A stretch of 64,000 bases of DNA, from the NCBI GenBank assembly GCA_950106755.1, contig OX467092.1, positions 9,052,001-9,116,000 of the forward strand. The letters are read 5' to 3'. Shown here piece after piece: positions 1,286-43,850 of this stretch. The notes under the pieces are model-generated. The model saw nothing but the letters and a program-made list of their open reading frames with translations. It ran no database searches and was not told where the DNA came from. The stretch is from Climacium dendroides (Eukaryota; Streptophyta; Bryopsida; Hypnales; Climaciaceae). Numbering within the stretch: position 1 is the stretch's first letter; every line of letters starts with the position of its first letter. Both the position numbers and the translations under genes were made by a program.

Positions 1286-2027
1286 GTAAGTCCAATCTCT
1301 CCAGGCGCATGTCACCGGCCGCAAACATGAAGATATATTTGTGTCTGTGTTCAGCTTGTTACAACTCTTTTGATATTTCAAATTCTTGTGGCTGTTGTAT
1401 TGGCGTTTCTTGAATCCAGCTGAATTTTTCTCGTTCTGTGGTAGGTTTTTTGAATTTCGTTTTCGTTTTTGTTAAGTTTTCGTTTTCGTTTTCGTTTTCG
1501 TTTTGGATGTATTTCTTCGAATCACAGGGTACACGCTGTGCCTTGGAAGAGGTTTTGAACCTAAATTTGAGAATAGTCCTTGGTTGGTCGGACTTTAGAG
1601 CCATTTCGAGTAAATGGGAGTACATGCTGAGGTAGCGAGGTTCTGTGTGGTTTATTGTAGTCATTAGCCGAAATCATGAAGTGCTTTCTGGCTGGATTCT
1701 TGTTTTTATGAATTTTTGAATGTTCAGGTTTTTGTTGCTGATCGTGTCGGTGTTTCTTGAATCCAACTGAGTGTTCTTGTTTTATTGTAGGGTTTTATTT
1801 TATTTTTTTATAAATTTTATAATTTTATGTGCTATGTGCAACTTTAGGACTAGATCCCTGTCTTTGCCTTCAAATATTGAACTCAATATATTACTGGAAG
1901 TGCGTGAAAGAAAGTTAATGCCATATTGAATCTTGGATACCGTGAACAGATGTTCCCAGGGTGGTAGTAGCTGAATTCAAGAACGATAATAGAGAATTCA
2001 CCATATTGTGAAATTGTCTTTTTCCAG
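1286..2027 (+). other. Probable 5'-UTR intron of the carrier gene, with GTTTTC microsatellite
   Basis: The donor GTAAGT at 1286 and the acceptor TTTTTCCAG ending at 2027 bracket a T-rich stretch typical of a leader intron. It contains a short imperfect (GTTTTC)n run at about 1465-1505. The next exon would start at 2028, 71 bases before the ATG. Confidence 0.5.
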
Positions 2028-2098
2028 GTTTTGCAACTGAAATTTTGATTGGGATATTCAACTTTACGAGCAGCTGAGATTTAGGACCTGAGAAAACA

Positions 2099-5000: not shown

Positions 5001-6239
5001 ACAACGCCTTAGTTTACAATCAATGTCACATACACATTTTGTCAATGACTTATTCGTGATTTCGTGTTTGGATTTGGTGTAAGGTTATACTTGTATTACT
5101 TACAAGTTATCTTATTCTATGTCAAATTAATTCTGTGCTGTAATGCAGGTGGTATTCACGAATCCCATGGAGATCGTGAAAGTTCGACTTCAGACTCAGA
5201 AAGATGGGGCACCGAAGAAGGCGTTGTGGACTATTGTAAAAGAGCTCGGAGTAAGAGGTCTTTATGATGGTGCAGGTGTTACCCTAGCCCGTGATGTGCC
5301 TAGCTCAGCGATCTTTTTCGCTATTTATACTCTCCTCCGTGGACTCTACCCGGAACAGAGTTTCCTTGCTGGAGCTATCGCCGCTATACCTGCTACCGTG
5401 TTGGTCACTCCCATGGACATAATTAAAACTCGGCTTCAGGTATGTAGTCCATCTCTCTACGCGCAGTACCGACGCTTTGTCAGTACACCGTTCTTGCATA
5501 TAGGGTAGTCTTTGACATCAGAAATTGATTGGTTAAGATATCTGGAGTCGTTTTAGGCTGTTTACTCTGGTACAATTTTTTCAGTTAGAAAATGCATGAG
5601 AAGGTAGAGGATACTATTTGCGTTACTTTGAACATTTTAACACATTTAGGTGAGTTATTTTTACCCAAAGTTGGTGCAGTAGAGCGATCTTTGGGTGCAA
5701 GAACTAAACTCTCCTGAAATCAAATTTCTATCACTATGTAAGAATTTCTTGTGAAATTGTAGGCCACAACTGAAGGGATAGTGAACAATCTCATTTGTTT
5801 TCAAAGATCAGTGGTCGTAGACATTTATCCAAGTGATGCATTCACGCAACTTACTATTTGCCAATTAAGTGCATGAATTGATGAGTAGCTGTGGGTATAA
5901 GAGACGGTATTAGGTTCTAACAGTTTTTTTATTCTCTTCCTTGCGATTGTTTTGTGGACTCTTTTTGCAAGGAATGGGAGTATTTATTTTCCATTCTTGA
6001 CACTTTTTACTTTTGTTTTTGTGATGACTGACCAACTACCGTTTGCTAATGCGTCAATGCAGAAAGAACCTTCACCTGGAGAGCCGCAATACACGGACTG
6101 GTGGGAGTGTATGCAGGATATTGTATCTAAGGAGGGACCCCAGGCTCTTTTCAAAGGCAGTCTCTTACGTGTTCTACGAACAAGCCCACAGTTTGGCATC
6201 ACCTTGATGGTCTATGGAATACTGTGCGACGGTTCATGA
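2099..6239 (+). CDS. Citrin/aralar-type carrier with long N-terminal extension (6 coding exons)
   Basis: Exons by consensus GT-AG, all phase 0: 2099-2788, 3555-4148, 4510-4632, 4880-4993, 5149-5439, 6063-6239; total 662 aa. The C-terminal half is a mitochondrial-carrier (SLC25) domain with three signatures: [25 protein letters not shown] and [29 protein letters not shown] and the [13 protein letters not shown] end are typical of the aspartate/glutamate carrier (citrin/aralar) group, so exchange of amino acids across an organelle inner membrane is the likely role. The EF-hands of animal citrins are not visible. Exon 1 instead encodes a basic leader and a hydrophobic Ala-rich segment (about residues 150-172, ending SASAAEA) that looks like an organelle targeting signal. 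Three copies of an [E/D]D-x-FYAW-[K/R]Q-[V/I]-x-KE motif follow at about residues 250-262, 282-294 and 317-329, then an Ala/Val-rich linker. The start is the first ATG after the leader acceptor. Family is secure; substrate and membrane are inferred. Confidence 0.85.
2880..3140. repeat. Dispersed repeat fragment in intron 1 of the carrier gene
   Basis: A stretch containing GAATGGAAATGGGGTTGTCTA, then CCCACTT and CTCCTACATATTGGT words resembles 60,530-60,710, where the same words occur in the same order and orientation. It looks like two diverged copies of one unclassified element. The boundaries are approximate and were judged by eye. Confidence 0.35.
5590..5850. repeat. Dispersed repeat in intron 5 of the carrier gene
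   Basis: The words GAGAAGGTAGAGGATACTAT, TTGCGTTACTTTGA, GTAGGCCAC and AGACATTTATCCAAGTGATG recur in order at about 8,690-9,180 downstream of the acyl carrier gene. This is a shared, diverged dispersed element. No termini or target duplication could be assigned. Confidence 0.4.
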
Positions 6240-6953
6240 GAGCATGGGCTACTCACAGCTTCATTGAAATGAGTGAATGTCTTCACTCTACTCATTAATT
6301 TAGTGAAGATCACCGTGTATTTAATCCACCAGGCAATTGTAATTTATGTAGTGATTACCAAAGGAGTTGTACCTACCATTTCTTAGTCACCTAAAATTAT
6401 TCGACATGCTACTGAACAAGTGTCTCTCGGGATGAAGGTTGCCTTTTACAGCGACACTAGCCCTTCCAGAAACTGACCTAAAATATGATTCTTTTGATTA
6501 GGTAGCGATTGACCCTTGAATGGGTCCAGACAGACAATTTTTGTTGTATATAAATTATTTTTCCACTTCGGAAATCAACTGTGAATTTTTACGGAGAAAC
6601 AGGCTTTCAGTGTATTGCAATCTGGTGTACTATTCATACTAATGAATGTCGTGGTGATTCCCCTCAGGTTTGAAGGCCAAAAATCATATGGCAAAGAGTA
6701 TATGAGCCCATTACTAAAATCCTGGGTACAATTGTCATGTTTAAAGAACTGTGCATGATGTGAAAATGTGGAACGATGATTTCCCATCACCCAAAAAGCT
6801 ATTGATGTGTTTCAGCTCAACATTTGAATGGATAATAGCAACGAGAATGCTGGTCGTCATGAATAAAAAGTCTATTGGGATTAGTTCAGCTACCCAGGCT
6901 TTGGGAAGTGCATAAAATAGTGCAAAAAATAGTGCAAATGTTACAAAATCATC
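6240..6953. other. 3' flank of the carrier gene
   Basis: This holds the presumed 3'-UTR (about 200-400 bases, AT-rich) followed by unremarkable intergenic DNA. No gene is recognised; a short minus-strand open frame near 6,741-6,992 has no recognisable features. Confidence 0.4.
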
Positions 6954-7190
6954 AATCGGCCAGGGAGGATTGACTAGGGAGGATTGACTCATCTATTGCC
7001 CCATCAAAGGGTAAATGTAAAAATTGCCCCCTATTTTGTGCCACTTAAATTTTGTAATTCTTCACGTCTCCTAGCTGGTAAGAATTTTGTAATTCTTCAC
7101 AGCTCCTAGCTGGTAAGAAATCTCTGATTGCAAATATGAATTCAGTGGTAAGAAATCTCTGATTGCAAATATGAATTCAGAATTTGCAAA
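6954..7190. mobile_element. Truncated, internally duplicated Mutator-like MITE
   Basis: It starts with GGCCAGGGAGGATTGACT, related to the termini of the copies at 696 and 54,671, followed by the shared internal words CTATTGCCCC and AAATTGCCCCCTATTTT. The opposite terminus is missing. Two short direct duplications lie inside: one around TTGTAATTCTTCAC and CTCCTAGCTGG, one around GGTAAGAAATCTCTGATTGC. It ends about 290 bases before the acyl carrier protein start codon, so it may lie in that promoter. Confidence 0.55.
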
Positions 7191-7449
7191 TTTTATCATA
7201 TGCGGCAAATATAAAATTTCGGTGTTTTATTCCTGTACGGAGTATGAAATGGTTACGCAGGTTAAAAAGGGAGAAGTAAACTTTGTACCCTGTGACCGTG
7301 ATGGATTCCGGCAGTAGCCGAAGAGAACCCATGACCGTGTAACCAGAGCTCCAAGCTCTAGTTTCGGTTCTCCGTGTCACGGCTCTGTTTCTAGGGGCCA
7401 TTTCCGCAATCGCTCTCAGTTGTGTTGCACCGTTTGCTGTGAGCTCCCG

Positions 7450-7459
7450 TTAGGGTTTA
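7450..7459 (+). promoter_or_regulatory. Telo-box (TTAGGGTTTA) before the acyl carrier protein gene
   Basis: TTAGGGTTTA, the reverse of the plant telo-box AAACCCTAA, sits about 17 bases before the ATG. Telo-boxes are common in the promoters and leaders of plant translation and growth-related genes. Function here is inferred from sequence and position only. Confidence 0.45.
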
Positions 7460-7475
7460 TTTCGTATACGTTACG

Positions 7476-8202
7476 ATGCAGGCTGTGAGACCCTCGTCGC
7501 TGCGGGCGCTTCACGGAGCTCTTTTGCAGCACTTGAGAGTGCAGCCCGGCGCCACATGGGGTGTCCTTCGAGCCATGTCCGGTGAAGCGCACGCTCAGGG
7601 GACGTACCTGGATCGTTCGCAGGTCGTGGATCGCGTTCTTTCAGTGCTCAAGAGTAACGCCAAAGTGGATCCAGCCAAGGTATGTTCGTGTTGCTGTTTC
7701 TGTAGCAATTTAGGGCTTCGCAATGGGAGCTTGTTTGGAGGGTGAGGGTGGACAATGTGAGGGTGGACAATGCCGTAAGGTAGGGCCGACGAGCATAATT
7801 CGTATTATTACTAAACTCGTCAAGTTTCTATTGATGCTCGTAGTGTCTAATGAAATTTTTTGATTCCAGTGCACCAAAGAATGCGTCATTTGGATACTGT
7901 ATGCAAAATTTATGAAGGTTCAAAGTTTTATTGGTTTGTATTCGAAAATCAATTCGTGGACAGTAGTTACATATTGATTATGGGGATGAACACTAGCTGA
8001 ACATCTGAGTGATTATCTGCACCAGGTATCAGAGTCGGCGAGCTTCAAACAGGATTTAGGCCTCGACAGTTTAGATGAAGTGGAGATTGTGATGGCAGTC
8101 GAGGGGGAGTTCGCGTTGGAGATTCCGGATGCGGAAGCTGATAAAATTAAGTCCGCAAGGGATGTGATCGAGTTCGTCGCCTCGCACCCCCGGGCCAAGT
8201 AG
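7476..8202 (+). CDS. Mitochondrial acyl carrier protein (2 exons)
   Basis: Exon 1 is 7476-7679 and exon 2 is 8026-8202, joined in phase 0 (donor AAG|GTATGT, acceptor CACCAG|GT), giving 126 aa. Residues 1 to about 40 form an Arg-rich, acid-poor mitochondrial presequence. The mature part carries the ACP core with DLGLDSLDEVEIVMAVE; Ser83 of the DSL motif is the expected 4'-phosphopantetheine attachment site. Helix 3 follows as FALEIPDAEADKI, and the protein ends ASHPRAK. It would carry acyl chains for mitochondrial type II fatty acid and lipoate synthesis and may also join respiratory complex I, as known for this family. Length and motifs are standard. The intron shares a short repeat with intron 2 of the carrier gene. 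Confidence 0.93.
7855..7965. repeat. Short repeat in the acyl carrier protein intron
   Basis: The word order GCACCAAAGA, TTATTTGGATAC or CATTTGGATAC, CAAAATT, then a CAAAGTTTTA or CAACGTTTTA word is shared with 4,275-4,355 in intron 2 of the carrier gene. A related inverted stretch lies near 37,830-37,890. This is a diverged dispersed element lodged in introns of unrelated genes. Confidence 0.35.
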
Positions 8203-8799
8203 ATTTTAATCCCTCTCACTCTTGTCAATTTTACTCAATTGTTAACCTTCTAATGGATCGAAGCAGACATGCTGCAGCCGAAGAGTTTTTACGCCCTCTT
8301 TGAACGTTGCTGTATTGGGTCTTCTGAATAGAATTCTTTCTTCGCTCGACGAAGTTTCACATTCAAGAAGTCAGTTACTCGTGTGATATTTCCAACGTAG
8401 AACTCATTCAAAGATTTCGCTCGTTACTTGGAATAAATGCCAGCATTCATTGCTCTTCAAAATTTGACATTTGTAGGCATACTTGAACTTATAGCTGCCA
8501 GGTAGCATGGCATGCAATCTCAGCCTTTTGAGTGGGCTCACATTGTCGACCATCTGAATTAGGTTGGCAACAGGTATTGGGTACACACATTCCAGTGCCC
8601 ACATGGATTGGATATATGTGAACTAGTTTGTTGGACTGCTGAGGCCAATGAGATTATACCAAGCAGAGCAGGTTTGCAAAACAATATAAGGTAGAGGATG
8701 CCATTTGCGTCACTTTGAGCATTTAATCAATTTGGAAGGAGAGAGTTTAGGGAGATCACAATATAGCTATGGAGAGATCAGATCTCAATCTGTTGAGAA
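8203..8799. other. 3' flank of the acyl carrier protein gene
   Basis: This contains the presumed 3'-UTR and then intergenic DNA; from about 8,690 it merges into the dispersed repeat also found in intron 5 of the carrier gene. No further gene is recognised. Confidence 0.4.
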
Positions 8800-8913
8800 T
8801 CAAATTTTATCATTATGTATGAGTTATTTCAAAATGGGAGGTTGTAGGCCACTGTATCAAATTTTATCATTATGTATGAGTTATTTCAAAATGAGAGGTT
8901 GTAGGCCACTGTA
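8800..8913. repeat. 57-bp tandem duplication
   Basis: Two adjacent 57-bp units start at 8800 and 8857. Each begins TCAAATTTTATCATTATG and ends with GTAGGCCACTGTA, and they differ at about one position. The duplication lies inside the dispersed element shared with 5,590-5,850. Confidence 0.8.
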
Positions 8914-9180
8914 AGTGATATAGGTAGAACCTCTACCTCTCTTAGTGCATGGTGTCGGGAATATGCACTAAGAGGCCACAAATACTATAAACATTTAATA
9001 TAAACATTTAATTCAGCTTTCCATCTTGAATCATGCATAGGTCACTTATTGTCTGTAGACTCTTTTATTGCATATTATGCAATAAGAGAGAATACACTAA
9101 GAGAGGTTCTACATGTTCTATTTGTACCATTTCCATTCAAACATGAGTTCCATAGACATTTAACCTAGTGATGTTTACAT

Positions 9181-10354
9181 CCAACTTCTTGAAAGCCAAC
9201 TCCTCAATTGTTAGCTACAAAAGTCAACATAGGAGATAGAATAGATCCTCAAGGTTTTTTTATTGCTTATCTTATTTTTAGTAGTTTGCATTGGTGAGTT
9301 GTGAATGTTACTTGGTTGTTGTACTTTTTAGATATAAGCCTGTTCCTTTTCTTGAGGACGATGTAATGAGGTGACTACACCTATAGAATTTTAAAAGGAC
9401 TCATAAAGATTTTTGTCTTACTATAGCTTCTATTTATGAAAGAGTTGATTTTGGGTTTGCCTATTTTTCTAGTATTTTGGAAATTCATAGTTTATTCATT
9501 TGGTGTCCAAAATTTGCATGCTTAAGGAATCTTGAATCCTCTTTGGACTTTCAATATAATACAATAAGAATTTAGATATTTTAATTATAGCAAAATATAA
9601 CTACATGTTTAGAGGAAAGATGTTGTATACTTCATGGGTTGTTGTTCATCTTGATTTTTTGTATGCTTAATCTTACAAAACCCTTGCATCGAAGGACAAA
9701 AAACATCCTATTGATGAATGCATAAGAAAGTTTGGACGTGGTCAAGAAATGACAATTTTCTTTAATTTTTGTGGGCAATTTTTTGATTGGTATATTCAAA
9801 TCATCTAATATAGGGATATGTTTCAATAAAAAAATCTATGATTTATAGAGGACTTGTGATTACATCTCCAAAAGTGAATTTCATTCACACATAGTTGGTA
9901 AATAGGAGCATACACAATAAAAAGAACTTTAAAGTTTGGAAATGTGTCCATAGGCTTGTCCTTTCAAAATTAAACCGAATACTAATAGTGAGGCCAAAAT
10001 GTGCCTGATGGATGGATGACTTTAAAGATTTTTCCAAGCATTTTTGAATTACTTGTAAATTTTCAAAGATCAAGGACACAGGTACCTATTTGTGAACATA
10101 GGTCTTGCAAAATCTATCCACTTGCAACTTGCAAAGAGATGTGCATATTCAAAGACTATGATTGGCTCTTGTAATAGAAAAATAAGTTTTCCTAGATGCA
10201 TTCAATTGCTAAAGTAGTCCATTCAAGCATCACCTCATCTTCATTATGCCCCTAAAGCTAGGGTCCATTTGAAAGAGATGGTCCATTTTACAACACACTA
10301 CTATATAGGTTGTTGTTTTTCCATGAAGTTGTGCTTTCTTTCTATGAAGTTGTG
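9181..10354. other. AT-rich intergenic DNA
   Basis: No open frame with protein-like features, no terminal repeats and no tandem array could be recognised in this stretch. Confidence 0.4.
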
Positions 10355-23639: not shown

Positions 23640-24850
23640 GGGATCATGTGCTGATACACTCAACCCTATCAAAGGTAGGGTGTGCATTAACCCTACAAAG
23701 ACGCATAGGTCACCACGGTGGAAACCATCCTTTTTCGGTACCATGCGGATCATCTACTTAAATAAAATGTAAAAGCACTCATTTGAGGTCAAACTATTGT
23801 GCAAGACCTTCCCTTTTCTTGCACAAAATTCCAAGGATGAACATCGTTGCAATTTGTGCTTACTCAAAAGGATTCTTTGTCTTCCAATAGACCACTCTAG
23901 TTTGCAACATCCTTTTAGAGTTAATCATGTAAGGACGTGGTGGTCAAATGTGAAAATCATTCTTTGGGGTACAATGTGGATGATCTACTTGAATAAAAAC
24001 AAAAGTACTCATTGGAGGTCAAACTACTATGCAAGACCTTCCCTTTCCACACAAAATTTTAAGGATGAACACATGCATTTTGGTCATACGTGGAAGGATT
24101 CTCTGTCATTCATTAGATAACTCTAGTCTGCAACATCCTTATAGGATTAATCATGTAAGGATGGGTTGGTCACGTTGGAAATTGTTCTTTTGGATATAGT
24201 GTTAACTGCTTGCTTGAAAAGTAAATAAAAAACATTCATTGGAGGTCAACCTGTTGTGTTGGACCTTCCCTTTCCACACAAAATTCTAAAGATTAACATT
24301 TGTACTTTTGTCTTACATAAAAAGATTCTTTGTCATTTACTAGACATTTAGTGTCCATGATGACGTTACATGGTTAACCATATAAGGACAGGGTGGTCAA
24401 TTTGGAAACCATCTTTTTTGGCATAATGTTAACCGTCTACTTAAAAAAAATCAAAAGCACTCGTTGGAGGTCAAACAATTGTGTAAGTTTTTCCCTTTTT
24501 GCATAAAAAACAACAATGAACATATGCATCATCTTTTGTCTTACATAAAAAGATTCTTTGTCATTTACTAGACATTTAGTGTCCGTGATGACGTTACATG
24601 GTTAACCATATAAGGACGGGGTGGTCAATTTGGAAACCATCTTTTTTGGCATAATGTTAACCGTCTACTTAAAAAAAATCAAAAGCACTCGTTGGAGGTC
24701 AAACAATTGTGTAAGTTTTTCCCTTTTTGCATAAAAAACAACAATGAACATATGCATCATCTTTTGTCTTACATAAAAAGATTCTCTATCACCTATCAAA
24801 CATTTAGTATTTGTGGAGACATTACAAGGTTAGCCTTTGAAGGACATAAC
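23640..24850. repeat. Tandem array of a 228-bp unit, about five copies
   Basis: The anchor word GGAGGTCAA (GAGGTCAA in the first unit) recurs at about 23,786, 24,015, 24,241, 24,466 and 24,694, a spacing of 225-230. The last two complete units are nearly identical (TTACATAAAAAGATTCT at 24,313, 24,541 and 24,769, exactly 228 apart), while the first ones are diverged. Each unit contains CAAAATT or similar, AAGATTCT, a GACATTTAGTGTCC-type word and a GGTTAACCATATAAGGAC-type word. A single unit lies alone at 37,895-38,125. Open frames inside are artefacts of the repeat. Confidence 0.8.
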
Positions 24851-27275: not shown

Positions 27276-27923
27276 GTGAAGAATGAGGAACATTTTACAC
27301 CTAGAGGCAGAGCATTCCCCTTGAAGCCAATTGAACAAATTTCAGCATTTTATCCAATCACAAGAGAGGATTTGGGGTCTCTTAAGGTAGCAACACCCAT
27401 AACTGACAATTTAAGAGTTTTAGACATGATGCCCACAAATACACATCCAACAAATTATTGAAACCTTTTAGCAAGAGAAGAATAATTCTTGTGCATTTTC
27501 AAATGTATTATTTGGACACTGTGAATATAAATTGTGAATTTTTCAAGAGTCAACTATAAATGCACCTAATATCACACATTGAGATATGATATTCAGATGT
27601 AGTACATCCTTGTAATCACATCTATTCACTTCCCAATATTTTTTGAGATTTAGAGGTGATGGTTATGGGTGCTGCTACCTTAGACAACAAATTGGCCTGG
27701 CCTCTAAATGTAAAGCATCCATGAGTCCCATGGTATACAAAATTCCTTATACAAAATCCCATTGAAATTATATGAAATTCACGTATCTAGTTGCAGCGCA
27801 GGAGACCCAAGCCCACCTGATTTCCTGCCCCAAATTCAGACCTGTGGTCCCAGAAACTTGATTCACACAACCCCAGGCAAACTCGGATCATGCCGCTGGA
27901 ACTGTAGCCGGACTCAGCCCCAC
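27276..27923. other. Left flank of the palindromic Harbinger
   Basis: AT-rich until about 27,780, then a GC-rich stretch of about 140 bases that ends at the element. The open frame at 27,762-28,040 crosses into the element and is not a gene. Nothing else is recognised. Confidence 0.4.
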
Positions 27924-27926
27924 TCA
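27924..27926. repeat. Left target-site duplication (TCA)
   Basis: TCA directly before the left terminus GAGCTCGTTTCC; the same TCA follows the right terminus at 37,451-37,453. PIF/Harbinger elements make 3-bp duplications, usually TWA, so TCA is a plausible but not typical target. Confidence 0.6.
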
Positions 27927-29259
27927 GAGCTCGTTTCCATTACGGACCCAGAGGTCCAGTTCTGGACCTCCGGGTGGTTACACAGCGCCTGCTTTCCGGG
28001 GTCGGAGCTCCGATCGGACCTCCAGGCCTCCGGTCCCTGAAGGTCGGAGTTGCGGACCTGGAGGGGCCGAAGGGTCTCCTGGAGGGGTAAAAATTTTCTC
28101 TTTAAGTTACGTAAGGTAAGATAGAAGAGTCATTGTGAAGTTGCAAAGCTTCATATAATTAATGAATCAATTGCTACATCGAAGGGATTTATTATGTAGT
28201 TATATGAACCAAAAATTGATTGATGAATTAACAAACTTAAAAAACAAATTAAGAAATTAATCAATAAGGTAACAAATGAATGAAAAGGTTAACAAATTGA
28301 TTCTAAAATTAATTAATTGAGTTTGTGATCACAAAGAAATGAATTAATTCATGTATTTTGTGAACAAGATAAGTTACCTAATTGCAAGAAATAACTAATT
28401 AATTATACAAATATAATTAATTGATTATTTTTGTAAAAAACAAAAAAGAATTAATCAATGTACTACGTAAACATTAGATATTACATACAATTGTATGATT
28501 TCAAATTTTTATAATTTAGAAATTTGAATTAAATATAATTGTATAACTTGATGTTTTTTGTAACTTTTGAACTTGAAATTACATATAATTTTACATCTTA
28601 GAAATTGAAATACAAAATGGACTTCAGAATTCTACTTTATTCTTCTTTTTATGAATCAACATTTCAAAATGCATGAAAAGTAAACTCACTTCAAAAGAAC
28701 ACATAAAAGAATTTGGCATTGGAGAGTTTTCAGATTTTTTCCTATGTTCTCGTCTTCCTGTATAGCTTCATTGAAGTAGGACAATGTAATGTTTACATTG
28801 ATAGTGTAATTACTAGACCTAGATTTTTAAAAATCTATGATGTTAAATTGCACCAGAAAAAACAATTTGGCTAAAAGATGGTGAACAAAAATTTTAAATT
28901 GAACATGACATTGCCCAACAACTTTGACTTTTAAAAATTTGAGATGGAATTTATATATGATAGATGTATACATCCAATACATAGATTAATCTTCAAATTG
29001 GAGCAGTACTATAACATTTTATATCACCACTTTCGCACATCTTCAAAAATGTAGAAAACCTTCCAAAGTAATTACAAAAAACACTATTCTGTATTATGCT
29101 CAGCATTACAAAGCTTGTTGTACAAATTGTCTTTAAAATAAAATATAAATCAATATCTCAGACCTAAACCCTAAACAAAAAAATCCACCATTACAAAAAA
29201 ATGAAATAACAAATAAGCAATGTCATTATTACATTCACCAATACTTTGGGAATTACATA

Positions 29260-30645
29260 CTATGTATTTAGTCTACGGGGCACAAAGTAGGGTCTATTTG
29301 TGCGATTTTCAACCACAACTAAATGTTGAATGATTGATTCTCTTATGATCTCGGCTTCATCTGTTATAACTTGCCTAGATATTTGTTGACGTCTACCTTC
29401 GTCATGATGACCAGGAAGTGGGACATCTTCTTCCACTCTCTCATTATGTTCTAAAAGAATATTATGTAATATACAACAAACATAAATGAGTTTGGGAACC
29501 AAAGATTCAACATGATTCCACATAGGTTTGTATAAAATTCTCCAAACCCCTTTTAACCTTCCAAAAGCACGTTCCACTATGATGCGTGTACTACTTTGTT
29601 TATAATTGTAATTTTCATTCATCTTGCTCAAATTCCTTCCCGGAAGGGGAACCAACATCCACTCTGATTGTGTGTATCCAGCGTCCCCGACAATAAGTTC
29701 AGGGATCCACGTACTTGCAATTCGACGCTTTTCTCCATTTAACCTTTGTCCTCCTTCAACTGCTTTGTAAAAGCCTGAATTCCTCAAAACTCGGAGATCA
29801 TGCACCACACCAGGGAATCCAGCAAATACATCCAAGAATCGCATCTCCGAATCAACAATTGCTTGGACTACATAACTATAATCATGATCTTTGTCATAAA
29901 AGTCTGTAGACCTTGAATTCTTTGGCAATTCAACTTCAATATGAATGCAATCAATGGCACCACAAACTTGTGGTATTCCCCATACATTTTCAAATTTCCT
30001 CTTCACAATTTGTAAGTCCTCTGCGTTAGGCCATTGCAAATGATGTTTGCCTTGTAATAGCATCGCTTTTATGAACCTCTTCACAGTTCTTGAAATTGTT
30101 GCGGTAGACACTCCAAATAATTCAAATACAGTGAATAAAGAATCTCTAGTAGCCAATCTTCGCAATGACATTGCAATTTGTTTGTCCACCTCCAATTTTC
30201 GACCTCGAATACTATGGAACGATGTAGGTGTTCTATGATTCATGTCTGTCCCAACCAGCTCGCATATGTAATTGAATGTCCTCATGGAAACTCTGAACAT
30301 TTTGCGAAACCTCTCAGGGTCGTTATTCATTACTTCTTCACTATAAAGGGCCCACCAATGTAAGGATCTTGGTTTTATGTACCACGGACCCCATTGAATA
30401 CCAAGTACGTCTTTTGGTTGTAAGTTTAAATTCATTATAAGAAAAACAATATCTTCATCTTCCATAGAGGTAGTAATTGCATTAATTTTTAAAAACTTTT
30501 GTGTGGATGAGACGGACTTGGCCACCCTCTGGGGAAGTATCATATTAGAAAGTACTGAGCTACTTTTTTTTTGTAAATGATTTAAGATGAAGGGAACAGA
30601 AGAGGTTGCCCACAAGTCTAAGAATCCTACCATATTCATATCCAT
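29260..30645 (-). CDS. PIF/Harbinger transposase, left arm (461 aa)
   Basis: Single uninterrupted frame. The N-terminal region has helix-turn-helix-like character (about residues 150-195, ending GVSTATISRTVKRFIKA). The DDE_4 nuclease core follows: GAIDCIHI with Asp232, the GVVHDLRV block (about 279-286), GDAGYTQSEW with Asp321, and ERAFGRLKGVWRIL with Glu358. All three catalytic residues are present. The family cuts and pastes elements with 3-bp target duplications and normally needs a Myb-like partner for DNA binding and nuclear import. Length is normal for plant PIF transposases. The protein is identical to the copy in the right arm. The start is the first ATG of the frame; an alternative start at residue 61 would lose only the N-terminal leader. 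Confidence 0.93.
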   Translation of the reverse strand: MDMNMVGFLDLWATSSVPFILNHLQKKSSSVLSNMILPQRVAKSVSSTQKFLKINAITTSMEDEDIVFLIMNLNLQPKDVLGIQWGPWYIKPRSLHWWALYSEEVMNNDPERFRKMFRVSMRTFNYICELVGTDMNHRTPTSFHSIRGRKLEVDKQIAMSLRRLATRDSLFTVFELFGVSTATISRTVKRFIKAMLLQGKHHLQWPNAEDLQIVKRKFENVWGIPQVCGAIDCIHIEVELPKNSRSTDFYDKDHDYSYVVQAIVDSEMRFLDVFAGFPGVVHDLRVLRNSGFYKAVEGGQRLNGEKRRIASTWIPELIVGDAGYTQSEWMLVPLPGRNLSKMNENYNYKQSSTRIIVERAFGRLKGVWRILYKPMWNHVESLVPKLIYVCCILHNILLEHNERVEEDVPLPGHHDEGRRQQISRQVITDEAEIIRESIIQHLVVVENRTNRPYFVPRRLNT

Positions 30646-31510
30646 CGTAAGTTTTTAGCAATGAATGTTTACAAAATATTTTAAAAGAAGTTTTAATTCC
30701 AAAATACAAGTTATAAGTACTTTTCATTGACTAGAACATTGTTCTAATTTTAAAAGCACTTGTATTCTTTCTATTTCCTACCATGTGAGTAGTAGTTCTT
30801 ATTATTAAAGTTTTTATTATTGGAATTATTGAATAACAGAATCATTATTGGTCTTCAATTTCTTCTTATAGCCTATTGTAGATTTATTTTTAAAATACTT
30901 TTATTTTGAAAGTTCAAAATAGAAGCATTTGTAAAGTAAATGTTTTGAACTTCTATGTAGTCCTACTTGAATAATAAGTTATTTTAGAAGTAGTCTTCAA
31001 AATAGTTACACTACGAGTGCTTTATTTTTAGAAATTCTTTTACTTTTTATTTAGTAAAAGTTATCTTGCTTTCACTTTTTTAATGTATCTTTTATTTTTG
31101 TCTAAGGTACTATAAAATGAGTATGGTGATTTAAAGAAAGCCAAACGTTTTTATAAATTCATTAAAGAAATGCGTTGTCTGTTCAAAGTTTTTGAAGCTT
31201 AAATATATCTTTTTTTGTTTGTGTAAGTTACTTCTAAACCTATCAACTGTTGTTGTCTCTTTGGTACCGTTTTTATTTTTTGTTCTTTTTTTTAAGAAGG
31301 GTTTGAAGAAGTGTATGTATAGAACATTTCGATGTGAGTGCATTTCCTGCCACGCATTCAAAGCATATTCAAATCTTTTGGAGTTGCAGCCTCGAAATTA
31401 TAATGTAAAATTCTTTGGTTTACTTAAGTTTTTTAAGAATTTAATCTTCCATGTATTAACCTTTTTGTATTCAATGTTGTGCTAGGCATCTTCCAAAATT
31501 TTGCTATACA

Positions 31511-32723
31511 ATGCAGAGTCAAAGATCTGCATCACCAATGTCCGAGTCAGTGAGAGTAAGAATTCAAGCAATTGACTTGAATTCTCAACAACAAGATGAG
31601 GAAGTAGAAGAGGGAGACATGCAAGGGGTGCCTGTAGGTCGCAACTTTGCTGCTGGACCATGGAACAATGACGAAGTTCTAATCTTATGTACAACCTACT
31701 AGGAATGGTCAGCAACTAGTGGTCCTAATAGTACTAATAGACATGTGGCGCATCAAACATCCTCATAGAAGTGGGAGAGTTTGTCAGATAGGTGCCACCA
31801 GTTAGGTTGTCACAGAAGTCCCAACCAGTGTCAGAATAAGTGGGAACAAGTGAGAGCAGACTTCAAAAAAATTCATGACTATGAATCTAATATTCCTAGT
31901 GGAAGACCATCATTTTGGTCTTACTCAGAATCTGATGGAAAGAAGTTCTTTAAACTAAAAACTTTAATGAAAAAAGATGTATATGATCACATATGCTCTT
32001 GGTTGCCTGGAGCATCCCGAGATGTACAACCGGAGCACTTGATGGATTCTACCACGTTCAACAACCCATCTGGTATGCGAAATCTTCCATAAAATTTTTT
32101 CTTTATGTTGTAGTTTGATTTCAATTTCTTGTAACTATAAAGTTCTATTTAATATTCTCAAGTTGATAGGGGAATATCTAATTTGTCTTTTATGCTCATG
32201 TCATTTCGTGGATGAAATTTGATGAAAATCCTTTTCCTTTCGAAGTTTCTAAATGATATTATCGTATACCATGATCATAGGGTCAAACCCAGGGGGACCA
32301 GATGCAATAGAGCGAGAAGATGGCAGTGAAGATGATGCAACAAATCTAGAAGGTAGATGTAATACTGCAAAAAGAAGGAGGACTTTGCCCCGGGCTTCAG
32401 AAGCTCTACGGGATGCACTTATTACGAACAGGGAAAAACTTATTGAAAGCCTTGATAGAACCCAAGATAGGGAAGATGCAAGGCATAGGGAAATTGTAGA
32501 CCTAGAAAGACACAAAATAGAGGCTACTTTGGACCTAGAGAGACAGAAAATAGAGTCTAATAGAAAAACCTCTCAAGCATTGGTAGGGGCTTTGCAGTCT
32601 ATGGCCAATGCAATGTCATTTTTAGGGCAATCTCTAGCACAAGGTCCGGAGCGTCAAGGTCCTCCAGGCCCGGAGGGGGTCCGGAGGATGGGAGGGGGGG
32701 AGGTGTTTATGGATAGACCTTGA
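31511..32723 (+). pseudogene. Harbinger Myb/trihelix-like accessory protein, left arm, two stop codons
   Basis: Exon 1 (31,511 to about 32,073) encodes an acidic leader, then AAGPWNNDEVLILC, and continues in the same frame past TAG at 31,700-31,702 and TAG near 31,766 into SDRCHQLGCHRSPNQCQNKW and FWSYSESDGKKFFKLK, typical of the Myb/SANT-like DNA-binding partner of PIF elements. A donor, CATCT|GGTATG, and an acceptor, CATAG|GG near 32,280, lead to exon 2, with a basic patch AKRRRTLPRAS and a charged coiled-coil-like tail (LERQKIESNRK). The frame runs out in the central spacer at 32,723. Both stops read TAG and could come from CAG by C-to-T change. Their identical presence in the other arm shows they predate the doubling or were homogenised. 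Confidence 0.75.
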
Positions 32724-33866
32724 CGCTCCGGACCTTGTGCTAGAGATTGCCCTAAAAATGACATTGCATTGGCCATAGACTGCAAAGCCCCTACCAATGC
32801 TTGAGAGGTTTTTCTATTAGACTCTATTTTCTGTCTCTCTAGGTCCAAAGTAGCCTCTATTTTGTGTCTTTCTAGGTCTACAATTTCCCTATGCCTTGCA
32901 TCTTCCCTATCTTGGGTTCTATCAAGGCTTTCAATAAGTTTTTCCCTGTTCGTAATAAGTGCATCCCGTAGAGCTTCTGAAGCCCGGGGCAAAGTCCTCC
33001 TTCTTTTTGCAGTATTACATCTACCTTCTAGATTTGTTGCATCATCTTCACTGCCATCTTCTCGCTCTATTGCATCTGGTCCCCCTGGGTTTGACCCTAT
33101 GATCATGGTATACGATAATATCATTTAGAAACTTCGAAAGGAAAAGGATTTTCATCAAATTTCATCCACGAAATGACATGAGCATAAAAGACAAATTAGA
33201 TATTCCCCTATCAACTTGAGAATATTAAATAGAACTTTATAGTTACAAGAAATTGAAATCAAACTACAACATAAAGAAAAAATTTTATGGAAGATTTCGC
33301 ATACCAGATGGGTTGTTGAACGTGGTAGAATCCATCAAGTGCTCCGGTTGTACATCTCGGGATGCTCCAGGCAACCAAGAGCATATGTGATCATATACAT
33401 CTTTTTTCATTAAAGTTTTTAGTTTAAAGAACTTCTTTCCATCAGATTCTGAGTAAGACCAAAATGATGGTCTTCCACTAGGAATATTAGATTCATAGTC
33501 ATGAATTTTTTTGAAGTCTGCTCTCACTTGTTCCCACTTATTCTGACACTGGTTGGGACTTCTGTGACAACCTAACTGGTGGCACCTATCTGACAAACTC
33601 TCCCACTTCTATGAGGATGTTTGATGCGCCACATGTCTATTAGTACTATTAGGACCACTAGTTGCTGACCATTCCTAGTAGGTTGTACATAAGATTAGAA
33701 CTTCGTCATTGTTCCATGGTCCAGCAGCAAAGTTGCGACCTACAGGCACCCCTTGCATGTCTCCCTCTTCTACTTCCTCATCTTGTTGTTGAGAATTCAA
33801 GTCAATTGCTTGAATTCTTACTCTCACTGACTCGGACATTGGTGATGCAGATCTTTGACTCTGCAT
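32654..33866 (-). pseudogene. Harbinger Myb/trihelix-like accessory protein, right arm, same two stop codons
   Basis: Mirror copy of the left-arm gene, with the same two in-frame TAG codons (near 33,675 and 33,610 on the minus strand), the same intron and the same coiled-coil-like tail. Only the last residues differ, because this frame reads the central spacer from the other side and ends at 32,654. It converges tail to tail with the left copy. Confidence 0.75.
32662..32715. other. Asymmetric centre of the palindrome (54 bp)
   Basis: The only part of the element that does not pair with itself. It is G-rich on the plus strand (GGAGGATGGGAGGGGGG around 32,684-32,700) and resembles the GC-rich subterminal zone near the outer ends. 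As RNA it would be the loop of a very long hairpin. The two accessory frames end here with different C-termini. Confidence 0.85.
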
Positions 33867-34731
33867 TGTATAGCAAAATTTTGGAAGATGCCTAGCACAA
33901 CATTGAATACAAAAAGGTTAATACATGGAAGATTAAATTCTTAAAAAACTTAAGTAAACCAAAGAATTTTACATTATAATTTCGAGGCTGCAACTCCAAA
34001 AGATTTGAATATGCTTTGAATGCGTGGCAGGAAATGCACTCACATCGAAATGTTCTATACATACACTTCTTCAAACCCTTCTTAAAAAAAAGAACAAAAA
34101 ATAAAAACGGTACCAAAGAGACAACAACAGTTGATAGGTTTAGAAGTAACTTACACAAACAAAAAAAGATATATTTAAGCTTCAAAAACTTTGAACAGAC
34201 AACGCATTTCTTTAATGAATTTATAAAAACGTTTGGCTTTCTTTAAATCACCATACTCATTTTATAGTACCTTAGACAAAAATAAAAGATACATTAAAAA
34301 AGTGAAAGCAAGATAACTTTTACTAAATAAAAAGTAAAAGAATTTCTAAAAATAAAGCACTCGTAGTGTAACTATTTTGAAGACTACTTCTAAAATAACT
34401 TATTATTCAAGTAGGACTACATAGAAGTTCAAAACATTTACTTTACAAATGCTTCTATTTTGAACTTTCAAAATAAAAGTATTTTAAAAATAAATCTACA
34501 ATAGGCTATAAGAAGAAATTGAAGACCAATAATGATTCTGTTATTCAATAATTCCAATAATAAAAACTTTAATAATAAGAACTACTACTCACATGGTAGG
34601 AAATAGAAAGAATACAAGTGCTTTTAAAATTAGAACAATGTTCTAGTCAATGAAAAGTACTTATAACTTGTATTTTGGAATTAAAACTTCTTTTAAAATA
34701 TTTTGTAAACATTCATTGCTAAAAACTTACG

Positions 34732-36117
34732 ATGGATATGAATATGGTAGGATTCTTAGACTTGTGGGCAACCTCTTCTGTTCCCTTCATCTTAAATCAT
34801 TTACAAAAAAAAAGTAGCTCAGTACTTTCTAATATGATACTTCCCCAGAGGGTGGCCAAGTCCGTCTCATCCACACAAAAGTTTTTAAAAATTAATGCAA
34901 TTACTACCTCTATGGAAGATGAAGATATTGTTTTTCTTATAATGAATTTAAACTTACAACCAAAAGACGTACTTGGTATTCAATGGGGTCCGTGGTACAT
35001 AAAACCAAGATCCTTACATTGGTGGGCCCTTTATAGTGAAGAAGTAATGAATAACGACCCTGAGAGGTTTCGCAAAATGTTCAGAGTTTCCATGAGGACA
35101 TTCAATTACATATGCGAGCTGGTTGGGACAGACATGAATCATAGAACACCTACATCGTTCCATAGTATTCGAGGTCGAAAATTGGAGGTGGACAAACAAA
35201 TTGCAATGTCATTGCGAAGATTGGCTACTAGAGATTCTTTATTCACTGTATTTGAATTATTTGGAGTGTCTACCGCAACAATTTCAAGAACTGTGAAGAG
35301 GTTCATAAAAGCGATGCTATTACAAGGCAAACATCATTTGCAATGGCCTAACGCAGAGGACTTACAAATTGTGAAGAGGAAATTTGAAAATGTATGGGGA
35401 ATACCACAAGTTTGTGGTGCCATTGATTGCATTCATATTGAAGTTGAATTGCCAAAGAATTCAAGGTCTACAGACTTTTATGACAAAGATCATGATTATA
35501 GTTATGTAGTCCAAGCAATTGTTGATTCGGAGATGCGATTCTTGGATGTATTTGCTGGATTCCCTGGTGTGGTGCATGATCTCCGAGTTTTGAGGAATTC
35601 AGGCTTTTACAAAGCAGTTGAAGGAGGACAAAGGTTAAATGGAGAAAAGCGTCGAATTGCAAGTACGTGGATCCCTGAACTTATTGTCGGGGACGCTGGA
35701 TACACACAATCAGAGTGGATGTTGGTTCCCCTTCCGGGAAGGAATTTGAGCAAGATGAATGAAAATTACAATTATAAACAAAGTAGTACACGCATCATAG
35801 TGGAACGTGCTTTTGGAAGGTTAAAAGGGGTTTGGAGAATTTTATACAAACCTATGTGGAATCATGTTGAATCTTTGGTTCCCAAACTCATTTATGTTTG
35901 TTGTATATTACATAATATTCTTTTAGAACATAATGAGAGAGTGGAAGAAGATGTCCCACTTCCTGGTCATCATGACGAAGGTAGACGTCAACAAATATCT
36001 AGGCAAGTTATAACAGATGAAGCCGAGATCATAAGAGAATCAATCATTCAACATTTAGTTGTGGTTGAAAATCGCACAAATAGACCCTACTTTGTGCCCC
36101 GTAGACTAAATACATAG
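34732..36117 (+). CDS. PIF/Harbinger transposase, right arm (461 aa)
   Basis: Residue-for-residue identical to the left-arm transposase, with Asp232, Asp321 and Glu358 intact. It reads outward toward the right terminus and ends 1,333 bases before it, the same distance as in the left arm. Having two intact copies suggests the element can still supply transposase, provided a Myb-like partner comes from elsewhere in the genome. Confidence 0.93.
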   Translation: MDMNMVGFLDLWATSSVPFILNHLQKKSSSVLSNMILPQRVAKSVSSTQKFLKINAITTSMEDEDIVFLIMNLNLQPKDVLGIQWGPWYIKPRSLHWWALYSEEVMNNDPERFRKMFRVSMRTFNYICELVGTDMNHRTPTSFHSIRGRKLEVDKQIAMSLRRLATRDSLFTVFELFGVSTATISRTVKRFIKAMLLQGKHHLQWPNAEDLQIVKRKFENVWGIPQVCGAIDCIHIEVELPKNSRSTDFYDKDHDYSYVVQAIVDSEMRFLDVFAGFPGVVHDLRVLRNSGFYKAVEGGQRLNGEKRRIASTWIPELIVGDAGYTQSEWMLVPLPGRNLSKMNENYNYKQSSTRIIVERAFGRLKGVWRILYKPMWNHVESLVPKLIYVCCILHNILLEHNERVEEDVPLPGHHDEGRRQQISRQVITDEAEIIRESIIQHLVVVENRTNRPYFVPRRLNT

Positions 36118-37450
36118 TATGTAATTCCCAAAGTATTGGTGAATGTAATAATGACATTGCTTATTTGTTATTTCATTTTTTTGTAATGGTGGATTTTTTT
36201 GTTTAGGGTTTAGGTCTGAGATATTGATTTATATTTTATTTTAAAGACAATTTGTACAACAAGCTTTGTAATGCTGAGCATAATACAGAATAGTGTTTTT
36301 TGTAATTACTTTGGAAGGTTTTCTACATTTTTGAAGATGTGCGAAAGTGGTGATATAAAATGTTATAGTACTGCTCCAATTTGAAGATTAATCTATGTAT
36401 TGGATGTATACATCTATCATATATAAATTCCATCTCAAATTTTTAAAAGTCAAAGTTGTTGGGCAATGTCATGTTCAATTTAAAATTTTTGTTCACCATC
36501 TTTTAGCCAAATTGTTTTTTCTGGTGCAATTTAACATCATAGATTTTTAAAAATCTAGGTCTAGTAATTACACTATCAATGTAAACATTACATTGTCCTA
36601 CTTCAATGAAGCTATACAGGAAGACGAGAACATAGGAAAAAATCTGAAAACTCTCCAATGCCAAATTCTTTTATGTGTTCTTTTGAAGTGAGTTTACTTT
36701 TCATGCATTTTGAAATGTTGATTCATAAAAAGAAGAATAAAGTAGAATTCTGAAGTCCATTTTGTATTTCAATTTCTAAGATGTAAAATTATATGTAATT
36801 TCAAGTTCAAAAGTTACAAAAAACATCAAGTTATACAATTATATTTAATTCAAATTTCTAAATTATAAAAATTTGAAATCATACAATTGTATGTAATATC
36901 TAATGTTTACGTAGTACATTGATTAATTCTTTTTTGTTTTTTACAAAAATAATCAATTAATTATATTTGTATAATTAATTAGTTATTTCTTGCAATTAGG
37001 TAACTTATCTTGTTCACAAAATACATGAATTAATTCATTTCTTTGTGATCACAAACTCAATTAATTAATTTTAGAATCAATTTGTTAACCTTTTCATTCA
37101 TTTGTTACCTTATTGATTAATTTCTTAATTTGTTTTTTAAGTTTGTTAATTCATCAATCAATTTTTGGTTCATATAACTACATAATAAATCCCTTCGATG
37201 TAGCAATTGATTCATTAATTATATGAAGCTTTGCAACTTCACAATGACTCTTCTATCTTACCTTACGTAACTTAAAGAGAAAATTTTTACCCCTCCAGGA
37301 GACCCTTCGGCCCCTCCAGGTCCGCAACTCCGACCTTCAGGGACCGGAGGCCTGGAGGTCCGATCGGAGCTCCGACCCCGGAAAGCAGGCGCTGTGTAAC
37401 CACCCGGAGGTCCAGAACTGGACCTCTGGGTCCGTAATGGAAACGAGCTC

Positions 37451-37453
37451 TCA
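37451..37453. repeat. Right target-site duplication (TCA)
   Basis: TCA directly after the right terminus, whose last bases are AAACGAGCTC; it matches the TCA at 27,924-27,926. Beyond these three bases the flanks differ. Confidence 0.6.
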
Positions 37454-37894
37454 GCCAACTTCGCATTTCTTGCATGAACCAAGCAGGGGCGGTTTTCCCC
37501 CTTTTACCACTTGATCATCAAATTTGGAAATTTGAAGTCATATTTGGACTACAACCTCCTCTAATTGAGAAGAAATGGGAGAATGGTATAGAAATAAAAC
37601 ACTCACAAAATATGAAAGACTTGAGTCCTTACATTTATCTGGCTTAGTGAAAGTTCTAAGATTAGGTAGGGACACCCAAGTGCACCAAGCATCTAAAAGC
37701 ATCACTTGAATAAACTTTCTCATTATGTACATCTCTTATATCATCTCCTACATCAACATGTGCCTATTGTTGAAGAAACTATTTTAGAATGTCTATTGAG
37801 AAGGCTATAATTTGTCATAACTTTTGTCTATGATATTCAAATGATGTATTCTTTGGTGCATTGAAATCTCCTTTCATTTGCCAATTTTGTTAAC
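37454..37894. other. Right flank of the palindromic Harbinger
   Basis: AT-rich DNA with no recognised gene. Near 37,830-37,890 a short stretch is the inverted relative of the small repeat in the acyl carrier protein intron. Confidence 0.4.
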
Positions 37895-38125
37895 CCTTAA
37901 ACGACAAACTGGTAATTGTGGAAATCATCCATTTTGATACTGTGGGAATCATTGGTTCAAAGAAAATCCAACAACCCTCATTGGAAATCGAAATACTATA
38001 GAAGATCTCCCCTTTTCACACAAAATTCCGAGGATGAATAGTTGCACCTCTGTCCTACACCTAAAGATTCTTTGTGATCCATCAGACACCAAATGTCCGC
38101 CTCGACGTTTAAGGGTTAAATTAGT
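37895..38125. repeat. Isolated unit of the 228-bp repeat
   Basis: It shares in order the words CATTGGA, CACACAAAATTC, AAGATTCTTTGT, CCATCAGACA and TGTCCG with the tandem array at 23,640-24,850, in the same orientation, and is about one unit long. No second copy is adjacent. Confidence 0.6.
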
Positions 38126-38959
38126 TTGTGCAAAGTAGAAAAAATGGCGTTGCTACTCATAGTAATATGGAAGCCCAACAATAACTAACCACCTTGAATG
38201 CCAAAATGAACAATTTTACTTTCCCAAATGGATTTAAGGTAGGAGCACCCAATAGCATCGGTGTATCCGGTGGCGTCATTTTTTAGGTAAGGTAATGATT
38301 CTAGAACATAAATGTAGGTCGACTATTTATTTTGGTCAATAAAAATAAGCTATCTACAATTTTTCTACATTTAAGTTTTGAAATGACTATCATGTGTAGA
38401 AAGTGAGACTCTTGGGTACCTTAACACCAATCACTCATTCACACACAGTCACACACTTGCCGTGCACAACTCCAGCAATTCTCGATCCCTGAACCAACTG
38501 CCCTGTCAACTGAATGCGCAATTGTCGTAGGGTGGGCTCTATATTTGCACACAGAACCTTGTTTTACCGATTCCAGCGCCGCACCAGAAACCGGAGGAAC
38601 CCCGGCATTGACTCGGAAAAGACGTCAACATGAGGCAACAACCGCAAACAACTTTTGTTCATGTCGTCTCTAAGCTCGCCAGGAATGCCAAGATTGATGA
38701 GTCTTCTTCTTGATTCTGGAGTCCAGAGTCTCGGGAGTGGTGTGCACGGAGCTGATAATTGCCTGCAGTTCGTTGGGGTGCGCGCTCCGTTGCTTCTGGG
38801 GACTGCTTTCTCCATGTCCCGGCCTGCCGGTGGACAGGAAGGACTGAGGACCTGACTCCAACCTGACACCATGCGCTTAATTTCGAAGTGGGGAACACAT
38901 AATTTTTTTGTGAGTCAACTAATTTTCTGCATTGGTTAAGATCACGATTGTAATTTGTG
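38126..38959. other. Intergenic with a GC-rich island (about 38,460-38,880)
   Basis: The island is open in several frames on both strands (for example minus 38,564-38,872 and plus 38,655-38,855), as expected of balanced or GC-rich DNA; none has recognisable motifs. It could be a promoter or first-exon region, or a remnant of a gene. Confidence 0.3.
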
Positions 38960-43184: not shown

Positions 43185-43345
43185 AAGTCCTTGTAACTTT
43201 GGCAATATTTATTGGAATGACATGAAACAAAACTTCATAAGTAGAATATGATGATTAAGGCCTGTCTTGAAGATTTCATACAAAAATTTCAAAGTTTGAA
43301 GTCAAAGGAGCCTACCCAAGTTCTCCAAAAGAATGAAGTAGGCCT

Positions 43346-43850
43346 TTCAAAACTTTAAGGGTTAAGAGTTTTGGTAGAGCCTAGTATGTCTACAAATGAT
43401 CTTCCTATTGGACAATTTTTTTTGGATTAAGGCTAAAAATAATATTTAAAAAACCCGTTTTGCACTATAAATAGAGTTTGTGCACACCTAGCATCCTAGA
43501 AACTTTGAGTTTCAAAACTTTAAGGGTTAAGAGTTTTGGTAGAGCCTAGTATGTCCACAAATGATCTTCCTATTGGACAATTTTTTTTGGATTAAGGCTA
43601 AAAATAATATTTAAAAAACCCGTTTTGCACTATAAATAGAGTTTGTGCACACCTAGCATCCTAGAAACTTTGAGTTTCAAAACTTTAAGGGTTAAGAGTT
43701 TTGGTAGAGCCTAGTATGTCCACAAATGATCTTCCTATTGGACAATTTTTTTTGGATTAAGGCTAAAAATAATATTTAAAAAACCCGTTTTGTACTATAA
43801 GTAGAGTTTGTGCACATCTAGCATCCTAGAAACTTTGAGTTTCAAAAGTC
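43346..43850. repeat. 165-bp tandem triplication containing TATA-box-like words
   Basis: Three units are anchored by AACTTTAAGGGTTAAGAG at 43,351, 43,516 and 43,681, exactly 165 bases apart and nearly identical. Units 1 and 2 contain GCACTATAAATAGAGTTTG, a good plant TATA-box word, and unit 3 has ACTATAAGTAGAG instead. The first 20 bases resemble the right end of the TTAACC-terminus family, so the unit may derive from such an element. Confidence 0.9.

Follow-up and report, generated by a model that had tools for sequence, protein, structure and literature searches.

A stretch of 64,000 nucleotides from Climacium dendroides (the window) contained a perfect palindrome, which is probably an inverted dimer of one PIF/Harbinger element with an L terminus at both ends, formed by fold-back near a broken R end and then inserted as a unit. 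The features of the palindrome are listed in Table 1. When each base x from 27927 to 32661 was paired with base 65377-x, no mismatch was observed, and outside the arms approximately 70% of bases mismatched in 100-base bins, which is the chance level. Global alignment of 27927-32661 with 32716-37450 gave 4735 matches, 0 mismatches, and 0 gaps. The mirrored 4,735-bp arms and 54-bp spacer described in the original prediction were thus reproduced at 4735 of 4735 bases, with no drop in identity along the arm-to-arm alignment. Repeat detection placed the arms at 27923-32661 and 32716-37454 (100% complementary, 54 nt between them), the terminal few bases on each side being flank. The left and right flanks were unrelated, and the mirror identity ended at each of the two termini. 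Chance does not account for a perfect inverted repeat of 4.7 kb.

Table 1. Features of the palindromic element, in window coordinates.
Feature	Position	Strand	Remarks
Left target-site duplication	27924..27926	.	TCA; boundary fixed by terminus GAGCTCGTTTCC, common to L033 and L034
L terminus	27927..27946	+	GAGCTCGTTTCCATTACGGA
Left arm	27927..32661	+	4735 bp; from L terminus to 3' end of Myb-like gene
Transposase gene, left copy	29260..30645	-	461 aa, DDE_Tnp_4, points outward
Myb/SANT-like gene, left copy	31511..32661	+	Extent inferred; faces centre; TAG at 31700-31702 and 31766-31768
Spacer	32662..32715	.	54 bp, asymmetric, from the R end of the element, on the basis of matches in L033 and L034
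Right arm	32716..37450	-	Exact reverse complement of left arm
Myb/SANT-like gene, right copy	32716..33866	-	Same two stops, at 33675-33677 and 33609-33611
Transposase gene, right copy	34732..36117	+	461 aa, points outward
Second L terminus	37431..37450	-	Inverted second copy
Right target-site duplication	37451..37453	.	TCA

Other repeats and genes were also seen in the window. The L-end region (27946-28545) contained many short imperfect hairpins in each arm, one of them within the terminus itself (27946-27975). Elsewhere, a 165-bp tandem unit occurred three times at 43345-43847 (98-99% identity), and a tandem array (~227 bp) was located at 23771-24846, with a diverged outlying copy across the palindrome at 37965-38132. 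At 2078-4181, exons of a gene resembling mitochondrial carriers (PF00153, 6.4e-9) were found; the best named match was from the moss Ceratodon purpureus (58% over the whole query), pointing to a moss as the probable host, and one unnamed protein scored higher. An Rfam scan of the window gave no matches.

The transposase frame was uninterrupted in both arms (464 codons, 461 aa from ATG to TAG) and matched the DDE_Tnp_4 domain typical of PIF/Harbinger elements (PF13359, E 4.3e-37). In the 120 of 132 protein matches listed, the best showed 70% identity over 99%, and the relatives were land-plant HARBI1/ALP1-like proteins, including Marchantia proteins and "Gb_" entries, which are presumably from Ginkgo. 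D, D, and E were present at the expected positions of the alignment (GAID, GDAG, and VERAFG), and we take these to be the catalytic residues. A structure search by sequence in the PDB returned no matches. A Myb/SANT-like domain (PF13837, E 2.1e-10) marked the second gene of a PIF/Harbinger element, here in interrupted form, and the two domain matches supported the superfamily originally assigned. The transposase genes were directed outward and the Myb-like genes converged on the spacer. In both arms the Myb-like frame carried two in-frame TAG codons, at positions where sense codons were found in all six aligned relatives from the genome (L021, L022, L025, L026, L027, and L029); L029 itself had a separate TAG, located one codon later. 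With an interrupted Myb-like gene in each arm, the sequence does not support an autonomous element, and the earlier description as autonomous was discarded. The two intact transposase genes that had been announced do have open frames, but with the Myb-like gene broken only one of the element's two genes is intact. In the protein search, a Myb-like query built from guessed exons and containing X positions yielded 0 scored candidates of 984, an odd result for a Myb/SANT protein, perhaps caused by the X positions or the guessed exons.

The L terminus occurred in the window at the two outer ends only, the next-nearest match having 5 mismatches in 20 bases. The same termini were borne by two other copies, namely L033 (4066-5269), which is short and derived by deletion, and L034 (287-5247), which is of the same kind but holds a nested 3.7-kb element. 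The L ends of L033 and L034 were 98.8% and 97.1% identical to that of the window, respectively, both copies were flanked by TAA/TAA, and their termini ended in GAGCTCGTTTCCATT. At their R end, GAGCCTGTTTCC led into the spacer sequence found in the window, with spacer matches beside the R termini at L033 4094-4141 (94%) and L034 331-370 (100%). The spacer and right arm therefore followed the R-to-L order without the outermost 27-46 bp of R, a range that comes from the alignment of a 12-bp difference relative to L034. The left arm repeats the element in inverted orientation and is attached at the broken R end. As judged from the sequence, the window element is one with two L ends and no R end, R being seen solely as the spacer. 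Both termini were L, where one L and one R are expected of PIF/Harbinger, and this pairing marks a rearranged derivative and not a standard element. The exact arms and the comparison with L033 and L034 thus upheld three parts of the original prediction: a near full-length head-to-head doubling, the loss of one original end, and the same terminus at each outer end. A second breakpoint, and not native sequence, could account for the spacer/right-arm boundary, because the Myb-like frame of the window reads on past the point where the related families B and C have a stop. The nested element of L034 (370-4046, ~3.7 kb) had 243-bp inverted ends (99.6%) and a nearly matching 8-bp duplication (GGAGGTGT / AGAGGTGT); its frames matched a HECT ubiquitin-ligase domain (4.6e-15) and an integrase core (PF24764, 2.5e-11).

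The target-site duplication had the 3-bp length of the superfamily, in which TTA or TAA is preferred, and read TCA. In the relatives whose boundaries could be placed (all those attempted but L031), the duplications were TAA (first copy of L021, L025, L029, L033, and L034), TTA (L022, L026, and L027), and TGA (second copy of L021).

The genome (412.6 Mb, 123 contigs) was searched with DNA, which gave at least 62 matches (best 40 of 631 candidates scored), and with the transposase protein, which gave at least 94 (92 of 725 candidates scored). The two window copies of the transposase matched at 100%; the others among the matches listed did not exceed 77%, and the best other full-length match reached 71%. 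The palindrome thus appears to be the only transposase-bearing copy of its family (family A) among the matches listed. Neighbouring transposase matches in opposite orientation were seen by eye at two places in the matches listed, the window and C41:17.26 Mb (L021). The approximately 230 bp of left flank adjoining the element had no other match among the best 40 of 516 candidates, and no second, empty copy of that side was seen. The genome search for single-arm and palindromic copies revealed palindromic relatives among the matches listed, but neither the DNA nor the protein matches listed included an intact single copy of family A, nor was a second copy of its palindrome listed. Because no intact single copy was found, the R end of the progenitor could not be placed exactly and microhomology at the family A join could not be defined. 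Among the matches listed, family A appeared only as the palindrome and two short derivatives, a pattern that would fit silencing and, equally, simple decay.

Twenty relatives were chosen from the best matches of the DNA search, not as a random sample, and palindromic Myb cores were present in three of them, a lower bound: L022 (family B) and L023 and L024 (family C). L022 was a single insertion flanked by TTA on both sides, with one R-type end, one L-type end, and no transposase match; its loop corresponded to native sequence of L027 (6138-6189, approximately 52 bp) as read from one of the arms. L023 and L024 also lacked transposase matches and carried a common internal deletion (L029 2766|4243) in both right arms, with approximately 70 bp more missing around it in the left arm of L023. 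They had the same asymmetric centre, one being the reverse complement of the other, and their homology stopped no more than a few bases from the L terminus (L023 2321, L024 8169), beyond which the flanks differed; the family C palindrome was thus present at two sites in the genome. One outer end was lost in each, and a two-sided duplication was not visible in either. At the family C centre, the native strand passed a loop and turned back at an imperfect 11-bp inverted match. The family B turn had extra A bases and little visible microhomology.

L021 (1381-8702) was rejected as a further palindrome. It consisted of two neighbouring family B insertions, tail to tail and 20 bases apart, with separate duplications: a complete element (1381-5639, TAA/TAA) and an inverted deletion derivative (5659-8702, TGA/TGA). 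The two copies were identical at 2995 of 2999 shared bases (4 differences), with one TGA in each transposase frame. Other arrangements were also noted. L025 (19-6472) was a family B copy (TAA/TAA) whose L end was split off by what appears to be a nested insertion of other sequence (approximately 2.3 kb). L035 (4872-6662), a diverged relative, carried Myb sequence in a smaller inverted duplication, in which the sides that face each other are the opposite ones. L037 had an inverted repeat of at least 2315 bp (249-2563 / 7686-10000; 99.9%, 5.1 kb between) that ran off the end of the stretch, with a Myb-like piece 81% like that of the window between the arms.

The arms differed at 7 of 1907 positions in L023, at 3 of 1436 plus one gap in L022, and at 0 of 4735 in the window. 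In a 12-row alignment, L023 differed from L024 by 4.1-6.0%, and the arms were 3.2% apart in L024, 1.1% in L023, and 1.5% in L022, the values for L023 and L022 being higher here because the aligned stretch takes in the asymmetric centres. In a tree of 8 of the 12 alignment rows (L021, L022L, L022R, and the window were left out), the arms clustered by site (100/99 and 99/98). Among 933 columns lettered in all four arms, 28 united arms within sites, 5 joined L023L and L024R, and none joined L023L and L024L. These data fit both one palindromic ancestor with arm conversion and the same hairpin folded twice; if the shared centre reflects one ancestor, the arms were homogenised, whereas folding twice does not require homogenisation. 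Because such homogenisation is possible, the perfect arms of the window do not date the event, and we rejected dating of the doubling from the 0 differences in 4735 bp.

For the formation of the inverted dimer, we propose that a break or a stall in synthesis inside the R end would allow a strand to turn at a short inverted match and to copy the element as far as its own L end; transposase would then insert the two-L-end molecule at this locus, generating the TCA/TCA duplication. Such a dimer could be cut and inserted if the transposase accepts L-L pairs. Fold-back at the R side is favoured because the spacer sequence adjoins the R terminus in L033 and L034. Insertion as a unit is favoured because the identical arms stop at the terminus on both sides with TCA outside both, a boundary that L033 and L034 (TAA/TAA) fix independently; a 3-bp duplication would, however, match by chance 1 time in 64. 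The model is also favoured by the L022 palindrome, which sits with its native loop in one insertion, and by the family C palindrome, which occupies two sites with different flanks and the same deletion and centre. The family A palindrome may have moved as one unit. Counting against the dimer model, L022 does not have two L ends, L023 and L024 are each one outer end short, and the family B join has little microhomology; the possible second breakpoint at the spacer/right-arm boundary, and the lack of an intact single copy of family A and of a second copy of its palindrome among the matches listed, count against it as well. Fold-back of this kind is established in other systems: the Tetrahymena rDNA palindrome forms at inverted repeats 28 bp apart (PMC5182062), and yeast inverted duplications arise in this way at inverted repeats close to a break (PMC6103520). 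Linear DNA with hairpin caps is also described in yeast, where it is argued to result from replication error and not breakage (PMC10766183).

As the main alternative, two copies of the same element could have been inserted tail to tail, with the R ends that faced each other and the intervening DNA being deleted later, but this is unlikely. L021 is a real pair of this kind, and a central deletion of it would yield the structure of the window. However, two independent TCA insertions would be needed, and these are improbable because TCA, although present in the superfamily, is rare: 1 of 46 insertions in the mPing assay, as given in the accessible text (PMC4561436). The copies would also have to be identical (0 differences in 4735) and a deletion to follow, and L022 has a palindromic core within one TTA/TTA insertion. 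Doubling of a resident element at its existing site, through fusion of sister chromatids or an aborted gap repair and with no later transposition, appears quite improbable. Inverted duplications do arise in this way in other systems, according to the portions available of PMC6103520 and, for gap repair, PMC4168063. Sister fusion, however, would also have mirrored the left flank, which is not mirrored, and the copied strand would need to end precisely at the L terminus and to join the right flank where a TCA matched. Fold-back chimeras, a familiar sequencing and assembly artefact, would account for the exactly identical arms, but this origin is highly improbable and was rejected, since a chimera would mirror the flank and here identity gives way to a different flank at the terminus, the spacer is asymmetric R-end DNA, and palindromes with differing arms (L023 and L022) occur in the same genome.

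With regard to the consequences of the inverted dimer, a Myb transcript ending more than approximately 54 nt past its own arm would enter the opposite arm and could fold as hairpin RNA. By analogy with the proposal for Mu killer, and with less confidence, the locus may silence its own family through hairpin or double-stranded RNA. As a broader and rather unlikely suggestion, palindromes might be a recurrent mobile form of Harbinger in this genome, several families having been doubled independently by R-side fold-back and transposed as units, with arms kept alike by gene conversion and hairpin RNA silencing their own families. Natural transposon palindromes are candidate origins of silencing loci, as proposed for Mu killer, and also of elements whose terminal repeats are very long. 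Because the whole junction can be read here, three families can be compared in one genome, and one palindrome lies at two sites, their formation, movement, and upkeep of identity are directly testable.

No full-length palindromic Harbinger was found in the literature search among the open-licence papers listed. The suggestion of a new composite form has to be qualified by the palindromic relatives in the same genome and by Mu killer, which already has a doubled terminus in the published portion consulted (PMC3440606). The window element resembles PIF/Pong/Harbinger elements, as represented by mPing/Pong in the text available (PMC4561436), in its DDE_Tnp_4 transposase, Myb-like gene, and 3-bp duplication, and related termini with TAA/TTA occur in the same genome; it differs in having L+L and not L+R ends, doubled genes, a TCA duplication, and an interrupted Myb-like gene. 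Galileo, a Foldback-like element of Drosophila, likewise has transposon ends extended inward as long inverted repeats, but it belongs to the P superfamily and, in the sections available, only its terminal repeats and not a whole coding element are extended (PMC4168063). In the Tetrahymena rDNA and yeast systems, as far as the available excerpts describe them, a short inverted repeat enclosing a small loop similarly gives a large palindrome from a single copy, but these are a programmed rDNA event and test systems, not transposons (PMC5182062; PMC6103520; PMC10766183). Mu killer of maize appears to be the closest precedent. In the part of its description available (PMC3440606), it is an inverted duplication of a DNA transposon with both terminal repeats from the same, transposase-side end, as in the window element, and has two inverted transposase-gene copies. 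A hairpin transcript of approximately 4 kb was proposed; mainly short antisense transcripts were found, and read-through from flanking genes was argued against as their source (PMC3440606). Silencing was demonstrated for Mu killer (PMC3440606); in the window element, the gene arrangement would permit it. Mu killer derives from MuDR and carries partial copies, with only approximately 1.3 kb of mudrA per side and a centre that could not be sequenced, again within the available text (PMC3440606). The window element, in contrast, is a PIF/Harbinger element with a DDE_Tnp_4 transposase and no MuDR/MULE origin, in which both the transposase gene and the Myb-like gene are duplicated in full and the entire junction at the centre can be read.
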